From Candidatus Oscillibacter excrementigallinarum (GTDB lineage: Bacteria > Bacillota > Clostridia > Oscillospirales > Oscillospiraceae), in contig DWZJ01000005.1 in assembly GCA_019118245.1 (NCBI GenBank), positions 1 to 64,000 of the forward strand: DNA of 64,000 nucleotides, read 5' to 3'. A model generated the notes under the pieces. That model did no database searches, was not told the origin of the DNA, and worked only from the letters and a program-made list of their open reading frames with translations. The position numbers were made by a program, and so were the translations under genes. Numbering within the stretch: position 1 is the first letter of the stretch; each line of letters starts with the position of its first letter. Of this stretch, positions 1-50,000 are shown one piece after another.

Positions 1-838
1 GGATGCGCCCCCCATTGTCGTCGTCGCAAAGTCCGCTAAGCTCCGTTTCCGCCTGCGGCGAAAACTGCGCCCGCTCCCTTGCTCCTCCTCTCCCCACCGC
101 GCGGGGCGCGGCGGGGGCCCCTTTTGGTTGCGCCAAAAAGAAAATGCGCCGCGCCCGGTGGAAAAGAAAAAATGTTGAGCGCAAACTTGCACGTTCGTGC
201 AAGTTTGCTTAAATACGAGGGTCGGCGTGAGATGGTGCCTGCGGGTTTTCGATGACCTTCCGACGGGCGCGGCGGGGTGCGGTGGCAACTTGAATGCTGA
301 TTCCCGCGGCGCGGGTGCGGTGGTCAACGGGGTGCAAGAACGCATTTGACCTGCTTCTCTTTCCGCGCGTTCCGCTTCGCTACGCGCTCCCCGGGCGGTT
401 GTGGCGGCGTGCAGCACTACACAGGGCCGAAAGCCTTCCGCGTTCCTGTAGGGGCCGATGCCTTCATCGGCCCGTTGCACCAGCTCCCGCGCGGGACAGC
501 CAGCGGCAGCGAAAAGCGGCGCAGGATGTATCCCTGACTTCCCCGGGCCAAAGGGTCCCCCAAGGGTAACGCGTTTCCGTCCCTGACTACCGCGCGGGAC
601 CGCCAACCATCCCCCGCCGGCGGCAGGAGGTCTGCGCCTGCGCAGACCGACCCGCCGAAGCGCTTTTTCTCTTCCACCGGGCGCGGCGCATTCTCTTTTT
701 GGCGCAACCAAAAGGGGCCCCCGCCGCGCCCCGCGCGGTGGGGAGAGGAGGAGCAAGGGAGCGGGCGCAGTTTTCGCCGCAGGCGGAAACGGAGCTGAGC
801 GGACTTTGCGACGACGCAATGGGGGGTGCATCCCGCTG
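1..838. repeat. Composite non-coding repeat; inverted arms ~1-175 and ~660-838 with an inner module ~310-660 (may extend beyond the window start)
   Basis: The reverse complement of ~660-838 is nearly identical to 1-175 (cgcaaagtccgct.agctccgtttccgcctgcggcgaaaactgcgcccgctccc...). The inner module recurs inverted at ~3700-4145. Confidence 0.8.
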
Positions 839-6255: not shown

Positions 6256-6299
6256 GCCCGTCTATTTTACCGGAATCCGGCGGGATTGTCAACGCCCGG

Positions 6300-45944: not shown

Positions 45945-46967
45945 ATGTACAGTTTCCGGAACGATTACAGCGAGGGGGCCCACCCCCAGGTCATCCAGGC
46001 CCTGGCGGACACCAACGGCGTCCAGACGGTGGGCTATGGCACGGACCCCTACTGCGCCACCGCGGCGGACACCATCCGCCGTCTCTGCGCCGCGCCGGAC
46101 GCCGCCGTCCACTTCCTGGTGGGCGGCACCCAGGTGAATTTGGTGACCATCGACGCGTTTTTACAGTCCTACGAGGCGGTGATCGCCGCCCAGACCGGCC
46201 ACGTCAGTACCCACGAGACCGGGGCCATCGAGGCCACCGGCCACAAGGTCTGCACGGTGGAGGGCCCCGACGGAAAGCTGACCCCGGCGCTGGTGGAGTC
46301 CGTCCTGGCCCAGCACAACGGCACGGAGCACATGGTGCTGCCCCGGCTGGTGTACATCTCCGACACCACGGAGATCGGCACCATCTACACCAAAGCGGAG
46401 CTGACCGCCCTGCGGCAGTGCTGCCAGGCCCACGGCCTGTTCCTCTACCTGGACGGCGCCCGGCTGGGCTCCGCCCTCACCGCCCCCGGCAATGACCTGT
46501 CTCTGCCGGATCTGGCGGCCCTGACGGACGGTTTCACCATCGGCGGCACCAAGAACGGTGCCCTGTTCGGGGAGGCGCTGGTGCTCACCCACCCCCTGCC
46601 CCACTTCCGCTGGCACATGAAGCAGCGGGGCGCCGTGCTGGCCAAGGGGCGTCTGCTGGGCATCCAGTTCCAGACTCTGCTGGAGGACGGTCTCTACTTC
46701 GACCTGGCCCGCCACGCCAACCGGCTGGCCCTCCGCCTGCGGGACGGCATCGCCGCCCTGGGATATCCCTTCCCGGTGGAGTCCCCCTCCAACCAGCAGT
46801 TCCCGGTGCTGCCAAACGGGACCGTGGCCAAGCTCCAGGAGCTGGGCTATGAATTCGAGATCGACCACCCGGTGGACAATGGCCACACCTGCATCCGCCT
46901 GGTGACCAGCTGGGCCACGCCGGAGCGCGCCATGGAAGCCTTCCTCCGGGACCTGGCCGCGTGCTGA
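45945..46967 (+). CDS. threonine aldolase family / beta-eliminating lyase protein
   Basis: MYSFRNDYSEGAHPQVIQALADTN...GGTQVNLVTIDAF...LYLDGARLGSAL...TIGGTKNGALFGEALV. Confidence 0.92.
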   Translation: MYSFRNDYSEGAHPQVIQALADTNGVQTVGYGTDPYCATAADTIRRLCAAPDAAVHFLVGGTQVNLVTIDAFLQSYEAVIAAQTGHVSTHETGAIEATGHKVCTVEGPDGKLTPALVESVLAQHNGTEHMVLPRLVYISDTTEIGTIYTKAELTALRQCCQAHGLFLYLDGARLGSALTAPGNDLSLPDLAALTDGFTIGGTKNGALFGEALVLTHPLPHFRWHMKQRGAVLAKGRLLGIQFQTLLEDGLYFDLARHANRLALRLRDGIAALGYPFPVESPSNQQFPVLPNGTVAKLQELGYEFEIDHPVDNGHTCIRLVTSWATPERAMEAFLRDLAAC

Positions 46968-46977
46968 ATCGATCAAA

Positions 46978-47008
46978 AGGGACCGCCTGTCAGGCGGTCC
47001 CTTTTTGA
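46978..47008 (+). terminator. terminator
   Basis: aagggaccgcctgtcaggcggtccctttttg. Confidence 0.8.
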
Positions 47009-47054
47009 TAGCGTGCTTCCCTGTCCGCCGGCCCATGAGCCCGCTTTCTTTTAT

Positions 47055-47125
47055 CGTACTTTTGTTCGATTTTTGCTTGACAGAAACATTTGTTCGAGTT
47101 ACAATACGAATAGAACAAAAGTTCG
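47055..47125 (+). promoter_or_regulatory. SigA-type promoter with three LexA-like boxes
   Basis: Boxes CGTACttttGTTCG (47055-47068), GAAACatttGTTCG (47083-47096), AGAACaaaaGTTCG (47112-47125); -35 TTGACA 47077-47082, 17-bp spacer, -10 TACAAT 47100-47105. Confidence 0.8.
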
Positions 47126-47143
47126 AATAAGGAGGATATTTCC

Positions 47144-47272
47144 ATGAGCGGCTGGACTTTCTTTTTTATTCTGGTGGGCGTGGCCTTTCTGACCTCCCGG
47201 CTCTTCCGGATCATCGACGCCATCGAGCGCCCGGCCCGGCGCCACTCCCGGCGGCGGACCGCCCTCCGGTGA
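47144..47272 (+). CDS. 42-aa single-pass membrane peptide, putative SOS-induced (absent from the ORF track)
   Basis: MSGWTFFFILVGVAFLTSRLFRIIDAIERPARRHSRRRTALR; RBS aaggaggatatttcc; stop is 1 nt before the next ATG. Confidence 0.8.
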   Translation: MSGWTFFFILVGVAFLTSRLFRIIDAIERPARRHSRRRTALR

Positions 47273-47273
47273 G

Positions 47274-48539
47274 ATGGACGTCCTGGAAAAGCTCACCATC
47301 CTGACGGACGCGGCCAAGTACGACGCGGCCTGCACCTCCAGCGGCGGGGACCGGAAGGCCAAGGCGGGATCCATCGGCAACACCTCCACCTCCATCGCCG
47401 GGTGCTGCCACTCCTTCTCCGCCGACGGCCGGTGCGTCACGCTGCTGAAGGTGCTGCTGACCAACCGGTGCGTGTACGACTGCAAATACTGCGTCAACCG
47501 CCGCAGCAACGAGACGAGGCGGGCCATGTTCACCCCGGAGGAGCTGGCGGACCTGACCATCCAGTTCTACCGCCGGAACTACATCGAGGGGCTGTTCCTC
47601 TCCTCCGGCGTATACCGCTCCCCGGACTACACCACGGAGCTGATGATCCGGTCCCTGCGGATCCTGCGGGAGCAGTACCGCTTCAACGGCTACATCCACG
47701 CCAAGGCCATCCCCGGCACATCGCCGGAGCTGGTGGAGCAGCTGGGGTTCCTGGCGGACCGGCTCAGCGTCAACATCGAGCTGCCGTCTGAGGCGGGCCT
47801 CCGGGCCCTGGCCCCGGACAAGACGAAACAGGCCATCCTGGCCCCCATGGGGCAGATCCGGGTGCGGGGCCAGCAGAGCCGGGAGGAGCTGGTGAAGTAC
47901 CGCCATGCCCCCAGGTTCGCCCCCGCCGGCCAGAGCACCCAGCTGATCGTGGGCGCCACGGCGGACACGGACTTTCACATCCTGCGGCTGACCCAGGGAC
48001 TGTACGACCGCTACCGGCTCAAACGGGTGTTCTACTCCGCCTATGTGCCGGTGGTGGAGAATCCCCTGCTGCCGTCGAAGGACACCAAGCCGCCTCTGCT
48101 GCGGGAGCACCGGCTGTACCAGGCGGACTGGCTGCTGCGGTTTTACGGCTTCCGGGCGGAGGAGCTGCTGGACGCGGACCATCCGGACTTCGATGCCCGG
48201 GTGGACCCCAAGTGCAGCTGGGCCCTCCAGCACCTGGACTTCTTCCCGGTGGAGGTGAACCGGGCGGACTACGAGGCCCTGCTGCGGATCCCCGGCGTGG
48301 GGGTGGTCTCCGCCAAGCGCATCCTGGTGTCCCGCCGGACCCGGAAGCTGCGGATCGAGGACCTGCCCAAGCTGGGGGTGGTGATGAAGCGGGCCCAGTA
48401 TTTTCTCACGGCCTCCGGCCGCATGGCGGAGGGCCTGCGGTTCACGCCGGACAGCCTGCTGCGGAACCTGATCGCGGCAGAGCGGCCCTCCCTGCCCCAG
48501 CCGGAGCTGGAGCAGCTGTCCCTGTTCGCCCCTGTGTGA
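47274..48539 (+). CDS. putative DNA modification/repair radical SAM protein with helix-hairpin-helix
   Basis: CVYDCKYC (CX3CX2C) radical SAM motif; RIPGVGVVSAKRILVSRR HhH; TIGR03916-like architecture. Confidence 0.92.
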   Translation: MDVLEKLTILTDAAKYDAACTSSGGDRKAKAGSIGNTSTSIAGCCHSFSADGRCVTLLKVLLTNRCVYDCKYCVNRRSNETRRAMFTPEELADLTIQFYRRNYIEGLFLSSGVYRSPDYTTELMIRSLRILREQYRFNGYIHAKAIPGTSPELVEQLGFLADRLSVNIELPSEAGLRALAPDKTKQAILAPMGQIRVRGQQSREELVKYRHAPRFAPAGQSTQLIVGATADTDFHILRLTQGLYDRYRLKRVFYSAYVPVVENPLLPSKDTKPPLLREHRLYQADWLLRFYGFRAEELLDADHPDFDARVDPKCSWALQHLDFFPVEVNRADYEALLRIPGVGVVSAKRILVSRRTRKLRIEDLPKLGVVMKRAQYFLTASGRMAEGLRFTPDSLLRNLIAAERPSLPQPELEQLSLFAPV

Positions 48540-48550
48540 GGGAGGTCCCC

Positions 48551-49408
48551 ATGACCGAGATGATCTATGAATACGACGGCAGCTTTGAGGGATTCCTCAC
48601 CTGCGTCTTTGAGCGCTACGCCCAAAAAGAAGTCCTCACCGCCATCACCTGCGGTGAGGATATTCAATCCACGCTGTTCCCCGTGCGGACGGTCCTGACG
48701 GACCGGGACCACGCCGCCCGGGTGTACCGGAAGGTGGTCAAGCTGTCCCCGGAGGCGGCGGATCTGCTGCGCCGGGGCTTTCTCACCTGCCTGCCGGAGC
48801 GGGAGATGCACCTCCTCCGGCTGGTGGTGAAGCTGCTGGAGGAGGGCCCCCGCTTCCTCCGGGACCTGTCCGACGAGGCGCTCTACCCGGTCCTGCGGGC
48901 GGTGCGGCACCTGAACGGCGAGGTCCACCAGTACAAGGGCTTCGTCCGCTTCTCCGACCTGGGGGGCGTGCTGGGCGGCGAGATCCAGCCGAAAAACCGG
49001 GTCCTCCCCCTGCTGCGGCAGCACTTCTGCGCCCGGTATCAGAACGAGCGGTTCTTCCTCTACGACCGCACCCACCGGGAGGCGCTGTTCTACGCCGGGG
49101 GCCGATCCGCCATCCGGCCCCTGGAGCAGTTCCAGATGGCGCCGCCGGATGAGGCGGAGGCCCGCTACCGCCTGCTGTGGAAGCGGTTCTACGACACCAT
49201 CGCCATCCGGGAGCGGGAGAACCCCCGCTGCCGCATGACCCACATGCCCAAGCGGTACTGGAACACCATGACGGAGTTCCAGGGGGAGGACTTTTTCAAG
49301 CCGAGAGGGACTCCCGCAGCCGTTTCAGGCCCCGGCGCTCCAGCCGGGATACCTGCACCTGGGACACCCCCAGGATCCGGGCGGTCTGCTCCTGGGTCAG
49401 CCCCTTGA
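48551..49408 (+). CDS. TIGR03915-type putative DNA repair/metabolism protein
   Basis: MTEMIYEYDGSFEGFLTCVFERYAQKE...GGRSAIRPLEQFQ...MPKRYWNTMTEF; paired with the radical SAM gene. Confidence 0.85.
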   Translation: MTEMIYEYDGSFEGFLTCVFERYAQKEVLTAITCGEDIQSTLFPVRTVLTDRDHAARVYRKVVKLSPEAADLLRRGFLTCLPEREMHLLRLVVKLLEEGPRFLRDLSDEALYPVLRAVRHLNGEVHQYKGFVRFSDLGGVLGGEIQPKNRVLPLLRQHFCARYQNERFFLYDRTHREALFYAGGRSAIRPLEQFQMAPPDEAEARYRLLWKRFYDTIAIRERENPRCRMTHMPKRYWNTMTEFQGEDFFKPRGTPAAVSGPGAPAGIPAPGTPPGSGRSAPGSAP

Positions 49409-50000
49409 AGTACCGAAGCAGGATGGTCATCCGCTCCTTTTCCGGCAGCTGGTCGATGGACTCCCGCAGGGCGATCCGCTCCACCATGCCCTCCTCCGGG
49501 GCCTCGGTGCCCAGCATCCCCTCCAGGGTGAGGCCGTCGGCGGTCTCACGCTGGAGGGATTCCGGCGTGTCCGTGGCGATCTCCACCTGGGCGATCTCCT
49601 CCGGCGTCAGGCCGGAGGCCTCGGACAGCTCCGAAAGCACCGGCTCCCGGCCCAGCTCCTGCCGCAGCCGCTCCCGAATGGTGTAAAGGGACTGCGCTTG
49701 CTCCCGCATGGTGCGACCCACTTTCACCGCCCCGTCGTCCCGGAGGAAGCGGCGGATCTCCCCGGCGATCTTGGGCACGGCGTAGGTGGAGAAGCAGGTG
49801 CCGTAGTCGAAGTCGAACCCCTGCACCGCCTTTAAAAACCCCAGGCACCCCAGCTGGTACAGGTCCTCCGGGTCCACGCCCCGGCCGTAGTAGCGCCGCA
49901 CCACGCTCCAGATCAGGCCGTTGTTCTCGATCACCGCCTGCTCACAGGCGCCCCGGTCCCCCTCCTGGGCCGCCCGCAGCAGCTCCAGCGTGGCGCTCAT
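49296..50000 (-). CDS. sigF: RNA polymerase sporulation sigma factor SigF
   Basis: VVRRYYGRGVDPEDLYQLGCLGFLKAVQGFDFDYGTCFSTYAVPKIAGEIRRFLRDDG; follows spoIIAB. Confidence 0.94.
   Translation of the reverse strand: MSATLELLRAAQEGDRGACEQAVIENNGLIWSVVRRYYGRGVDPEDLYQLGCLGFLKAVQGFDFDYGTCFSTYAVPKIAGEIRRFLRDDGAVKVGRTMREQAQSLYTIRERLRQELGREPVLSELSEASGLTPEEIAQVEIATDTPESLQRETADGLTLEGMLGTEAPEEGMVERIALRESIDQLPEKERMTILLRYFKGLTQEQTARILGVSQVQVSRLERRGLKRLRESLSA

Follow-up and report, generated by a model that had tools for sequence, protein, structure and literature searches.

A conserved membrane micropeptide gene heading a probable SOS-controlled radical-SAM repair operon in Candidatus Oscillibacter excrementigallinarum

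Results

Gene layout of the locus

The window analysed is a stretch of 64,000 nucleotides from Candidatus Oscillibacter excrementigallinarum. Positions 47144–47272 of its forward strand hold an open reading frame for a small membrane protein of 42 amino acids (translation MSGWTFFFILVGVAFLTSRLFRIIDAIERPARRHSRRRTALR), recognised by its homologues, coding constraint, structure prediction and charge pattern. A Shine-Dalgarno sequence, AAGGAGG (47129–47135, forward strand), stands 8 nt before its ATG, and a single nucleotide separates the reading frame from the next ATG at 47274. On re-reading, the reading frame, its translation, the Shine-Dalgarno sequence and the gap were all exactly as given in the first-pass annotation. 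It is one of only two ATG-initiated reading frames of 30–60 amino acids in the 64-kb window, both strands counted, to combine a perfect AGGAGG with a hydrophobic segment.

The gene starting at 47274 (47274–48539, forward strand) encodes a radical-SAM (rSAM) putative DNA modification/repair protein of the family TIGR03916 (rSAM_link_UDG; 649 bits, cut-off 343.5). It has no Shine-Dalgarno sequence of its own, the best match to AGGAGG being 2 of 6 positions. The third gene (48551–49408, forward strand) was assigned by family match to TIGR03915/DUF4130, a putative DNA repair protein. The peptide gene is the first of three genes, followed by those of the TIGR03916 radical-SAM enzyme and the TIGR03915/DUF4130 protein, in an operon that is probably under DNA-damage control. 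At their 3' ends the TIGR03915 gene and a convergent sigma-F gene (49296–50000) share about 110 nt, and the same overlap is present in the annotation of Pusillibacter.

Promoter and LexA-like boxes

A sigma-70 promoter, TTGACA-17-TACAAT (47077–47105, forward strand, 11 of 12 bases), is the sole sigma-70-like match in the region 46900–49500, where 0.2 would be expected. Three LexA-like boxes of the type GAAC-N4-GTTC accompany it on the forward strand: box 1 (GTACTTTTGTTC, 47056–47067, one mismatch) just upstream of the -35 element, box 2 (AAACATTTGTTC, 47084–47095, one mismatch) within the spacer between the -35 and -10 elements, and box 3 (GAACAAAAGTTC, 47113–47124, perfect) at about position +1 of the transcript. 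When the 130 nt upstream were shuffled 5000 times, three or more such boxes arose once. Many relatives have a box resembling box 1 upstream, and box 3 is kept in most of them.

The arrangement recurs among the 59 loci that have the peptide, namely the window and 58 relatives. A recognisable promoter (TTGAC-16..19-TAnnRT) was found at 57 of them and a LexA-like box inside the promoter spacer at 56. A perfect LexA-like palindrome falls within 130 nt at 49 loci, where shuffles would give 0.2. The lexA promoter of the same genome bears boxes of the same type, GAACAAATGTTT and GAACAGGTATGA, so that the peptide operon has GAAC-N4-GTTC at its promoter in common with lexA, as in Firmicutes LexA (SOS) regulons. 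An SOS promoter before the peptide operon is strongly supported by these sequence patterns.

Pattern searches gave a sample of the LexA regulon of this genome and pointed out two further boxes. One, GAACATTTGTTT (contig C55, 31349–31360), precedes an mraZ-like gene by about 200 nt; mraZ is the usual first gene of the division and cell-wall cluster, and the box could be due to chance or to SOS control of division genes. The other, GAACAAATGTTT (contig C52, 4075–4086), lies just before a promoter and a DUF1385-like gene, which is a possible further SOS target.

Distribution and conservation of the peptide

Searching named bacterial genomes with the rSAM protein gave 80 loci, nearly all from Oscillibacter, Dysosmobacter or other Oscillospiraceae. 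A homologous small reading frame of 32–75 amino acids lies directly upstream of the TIGR03916 rSAM gene in 58 of these loci and is absent in 22, which answers the objection anticipated in the first-pass annotation, that conserved homologues might be lacking at this position. That annotation had also called the peptide unannotated; this holds only in part, since the orthologue of Pusillibacter faecalis (NZ_AP023421.1) is annotated as the hypothetical protein WP_256315625.1. The replicon in question, named plasmid pMM59_01 in its record, is 504 kb long, is typed as conjugative and carries valS and the spoIIA genes besides the peptide operon, and so resembles a second chromosome or chromid more than a plasmid of the ordinary kind.

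In the rSAM tree, every one of the 52 rows that make up the Oscillibacter/Dysosmobacter branch has the peptide, as do two smaller branches that split off early. It is absent in a sister set of 22 rows and in all earlier lineages sampled, a distribution that four gains or losses can account for. With the peptide present, the TIGR03915 gene adjoins the rSAM gene in 54 of 57 informative loci; in the sister clade that lacks it, the two genes are usually apart or DUF4130 was not found nearby. The link between peptide presence and this adjacency is real in the counts, but it comes from one clade and was not taken as independent support. Downstream of rSAM in loci L086–L117 of this clade, either SnoaL-like, glyoxalase-like or TraX-like genes (identified by eye) stand between the rSAM and TIGR03915 genes or no TIGR03915 gene was seen in the vicinity.

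The peptide occurs in two forms. The short form has 32–43 amino acids and mostly ends 1–12 nt before the rSAM gene; the long form has 57–75 amino acids, and 13 of these overlap the rSAM start by exactly 22 nt. A truncated copy in another genome (G036, locus L158:198–434) ends at a TGA that is followed in frame by PIAWNIHLWD, which is like PAAWNVRLWQ of the long-form tail, and this copy is possibly a decayed long form.

The peptide alignment comprised 62 rows, the 58 relatives and the window together with three loci from other genera. The conserved core, GW..FF..LVGV.FLTAQLFR.ID.IERP, covers a helix and a juxtamembrane motif. Nearly invariant sites are E/D28 (62 of 62 rows), G12 (60), P30 (59) and R/K22 (57), and W4, T17, Q19 (R in the window), F21, R22 and D25 are further conserved positions. 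In non-overlapping row pairs, which were picked by low dS, are not fully independent and in some cases join distant rows, pS of the core was 0.44 and pN 0.24, and the core changes were distributed over the three codon positions as 272, 165 and 396. The closest pair that includes the window (with L040) differs by two synonymous and five non-synonymous changes and is uninformative. The tail shows no sequence constraint (0.41 vs 0.44), yet its charge is kept, with a mean of 5.1 K/R residues. By these measures the helix and the juxtamembrane motif are under protein-level constraint, and on the comparative evidence the 42-amino-acid peptide is a real, conserved gene.

Predicted anatomy

AlphaFold2, run with 38 rows, predicted one helix at residues 2–28 and a disordered tail (mean pLDDT 81). 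The window peptide can be divided into a transmembrane segment at about residues 4–21, the juxtamembrane motif at 19–30 and a basic disordered tail at 31–42. Because residues 1–19 are uncharged in 58 of the 62 rows and the tail is basic, the positive-inside rule predicts that the N-terminus is outside and that the motif and tail are inside. The proposal of the first-pass annotation, a single-pass membrane peptide at the head of an SOS-type operon that includes a radical-SAM repair gene, is supported by the homologues, the boxes and the predicted helix.

Probable translational coupling of the peptide and rSAM genes

An AGGAGG-like site (at least 5 of 6 positions) precedes the peptide at 58 of the 59 peptide loci, where the starts were partly picked by their Shine-Dalgarno sequence, although the conserved M-T-G-W start leaves little choice. 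Before the rSAM gene such a site is present at only 5 of the 59 loci with the peptide as against 20 of the 22 without it. The contrast in duplex energy of the rSAM Shine-Dalgarno region is significant (p = 1.6e-10), with the reservation that the loci are related and the p-value overstates the number of independent events.

The distance between the peptide and the rSAM gene is from -22 to +12 nt in all 58 relatives, which is about the range where termination–reinitiation works. The pair thus combines an overlap or short gap with a downstream gene that has no Shine-Dalgarno sequence of its own, as coupled gene pairs do. Apparently the ribosome-binding site of the peptide–rSAM unit is carried by the peptide, a feature newly found here and not foreseen in the first-pass annotation, and from this arrangement we infer that translation of the rSAM gene depends on translation of the peptide.

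Divergent copies and mobile elements

In profile searches covering 345 and 301 whole genomes, the rSAM-linked peptide was confined to the same family, and divergent copies turned up at other loci. Three copies in two genomes begin at or just after the stop of a protein of 90–110 amino acids that matches the C-terminal ~90 residues of a RecE-like recombination exonuclease (phrog_434, E down to 4e-17). In two more genomes a copy lies about 600 nt beyond such a RecE-C-terminal-like reading frame, and the remaining divergent copies come after an HNH-like gene or genes of unknown kind. None of the copies inspected was preceded by a perfect LexA box. E-values of the divergent copies reach 1e-9 where the profile excluded them, and the values of the second search are circular for the three copies that were used in building its profile; for proteins this short and hydrophobic, homology is difficult to establish.

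The peptide-like motif G..7..L[FM].LI[ED].[IL][DE] was seen in likely mobile elements at L156:5627, L157:5829 and L160:6484. It was also seen at L159 (reverse strand, near 6270), L186:1501 and L187:1501, and the genome G601 has up to five matches. A second weak match in the genome of the window itself (contig C105) has the motif MITWGLVLVGICTLTSGLFRLVDRIEGRR and a profile score of 1.6e-5; on these two grounds its interpretation as mere chance was dropped, and it is a probable divergent copy of the peptide.

Searches of viral sequences did not extend the family. The phage tblastn search with a mobile-type copy gave chance matches only, scans of viral contigs with the peptide alignments confirmed no relative, and the viral loci of the RecE-C-terminal-like protein mostly occur without this peptide. 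On four viral contigs (L227:3296, L231:1226, L232:3279 and L222:3265) a RecE-C-terminal-like reading frame is followed by a membrane reading frame of 22–30 amino acids. These viral frames, e.g. MVVICILLFPLVVLAELLKLNK, are conserved across contigs and of another type, and the viral membrane frame of 22 amino acids was not counted as a homologue.

Novelty of the peptide

Against Pfam, NCBIfam and PHROGs the peptide gave only sub-threshold noise, such as DUF7328 with E = 0.021. The open-access literature yielded no paper on the peptide and the literature searched none on the SOS response of Oscillibacter-type gut bacteria; nor did the open-access literature searched describe a small membrane gene with the TIGR03916/TIGR03915 pair.

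Discussion

Comparison with known SOS membrane proteins

In bacteria that have no SulA, small SOS membrane proteins are a frequent link between DNA damage and the cell cycle. An inhibitor of the SidA kind binds FtsW/FtsN and blocks septation. Caulobacter SidA, a membrane protein of 29 amino acids, acts on FtsW (PMC4211646), and the known small inhibitors are predicted to bind TM7 of FtsW through their helix (PMC13396833). Like SidA, the peptide is under probable LexA-type control, is very small and is predicted to consist of a single helix with no large extracellular domain, which makes it by prediction an SOS-controlled single-helix micropeptide of the SidA kind. Unlike SidA, with which no shared sequence family could be detected, it opens a repair operon with apparently coupled translation.

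YneA and ChiZ have an extracellular C-terminal LysM domain, which YneA requires, and SosA has an extended helix region (PMC13396833). The peptide resembles these three in being an SOS-controlled bitopic membrane protein of a Gram-positive bacterium. It differs from YneA and ChiZ in having 42 amino acids, no LysM and a short, basic C-terminus predicted to be inside, whereas their topology is N-in/C-out. In B. subtilis the YneA-type gene adjoins lexA. The peptide gene is not beside lexA, which lies on contig C52 by a sigma-factor gene and a secG-like reading frame.

TisB, the SOS membrane toxin of E. coli, is likewise a small SOS-controlled membrane peptide, and control of the TisB type relies on a structured leader and an antisense RNA. 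Judged by its spacing, the peptide operon would have neither a long regulated leader nor an antisense gene: the -10 element ends at 47105 and the ATG is at 47144, which suggests that the leader is about 32 nt long and leaves the Shine-Dalgarno sequence exposed. The basic tail and the coupling to an enzyme are further differences. A further known system for comparison is the TIGR03916/TIGR03915 predicted repair pair, found in the same operon. We rate as new the building of an SOS micropeptide into a repair operon; the SOS micropeptide as such is of a known kind.

Alternative readings

The main rival to a role beside the repair enzymes is that of a division inhibitor like SidA, whose helix would bind a late divisome protein (e.g. 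FtsW) and delay septation during repair. The SOS boxes, the single predicted helix and the position as first gene with the strongest translation signal speak for it, as do the lack of a yneA-like reading frame beside lexA in this genome and the fact that the best LysM match in the genome is not a small SOS-boxed protein. It is a serious rival, though less likely than not. The peptide matches no sequence family, its predicted topology is opposite to that of YneA and ChiZ, and the helix of YneA alone fails to inhibit division (PMC13396833). It was moreover lost across a whole sister clade and has mobile-element relatives without LexA boxes, and strict coupling to one repair enzyme would be left unexplained. 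That coupling and the mobile copies by the RecE-C-terminal-like reading frame, neither of them foreseen in the first-pass annotation, point at least as much to a partner of the DNA-processing protein.

If the peptide were a leader cistron, its translation would mainly load ribosomes on the rSAM gene and its product would be of little function. The tight spacing, and the rSAM gene having its own Shine-Dalgarno sequence where the peptide is absent but not where it is present, agree with this, but a mere leader would not need the constraint on G12, R/K22, E/D28 and P30, and we regard such a role as improbable. More improbable still is a membrane-depolarising toxin like TisB that would induce dormancy under severe damage. 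The peptide is indeed small, hydrophobic, basic and SOS-controlled, but the short leader with its strong, open Shine-Dalgarno sequence gives no room for a structured leader and antisense RNA, coupling to a repair enzyme makes it impossible to hold back the product separately, and the acidic residues D25 and E28 are conserved. That the reading frame is spurious and belongs to a leader region could be argued from its shortness and the uninformative changes of the L040 pair, but given 62 aligned homologues, a codon-position bias and a conserved start and Shine-Dalgarno sequence this is hardly credible.

A proposed membrane partner of the repair unit

The reading favoured here, though held tentatively and at somewhat less than an even chance, is that the peptide serves the rSAM/DUF4130 repair unit as a small partner, tether or regulator in the membrane. 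Three things favour it: the coupling of the peptide to a single enzyme, the predicted cytoplasmic position of its conserved face, and distant copies that adjoin a DNA-processing protein. As judged from the boxes, DNA damage would release LexA from the three sites and the operon would be transcribed. Ribosomes would bind at the strong site in front of the peptide and, after finishing it, would re-initiate on the rSAM gene, a step suggested by the sequence and supported comparatively. The peptide is predicted to sit in the membrane with its very short N-terminus outside and the motif Q/R-L-F-R-x-I-D-x-I-E-R-P and the basic tail inside; made in proportion to the rSAM enzyme, it may hold or modulate the rSAM/DUF4130 unit at the membrane.

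In E. coli, complex subunits are over-represented among gene pairs spaced -8 to +10 nt (30.4% vs 6.8%), but coupled pairs are more often not subunits of a complex (PMC10666635), which counts against the partner model. So would the mobile copies, which have no LexA boxes and a different neighbour, and which could reflect a shared membrane activity unrelated to repair. In an unsystematic look no fusion of peptide and enzyme was met. In most bacteria, and also in the sister clade of the same family, rSAM enzymes of the TIGR03916 type are unaccompanied by the peptide, which is therefore not a required subunit.

A wider conjecture, which we consider rather doubtful, is that a family of tiny membrane proteins partners DNA-processing proteins, with an SOS/radical-SAM branch in the hosts and mobile branches with RecE-C-terminal-like proteins. 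If it is true, part of the DNA repair or recombination of these gut Firmicutes would be tethered to the membrane. The peptide itself is a conserved, compact and testable candidate, and its coupling offers a handle on the role and the cellular site of the widespread, uncharacterised radical-SAM/DUF4130 pair.
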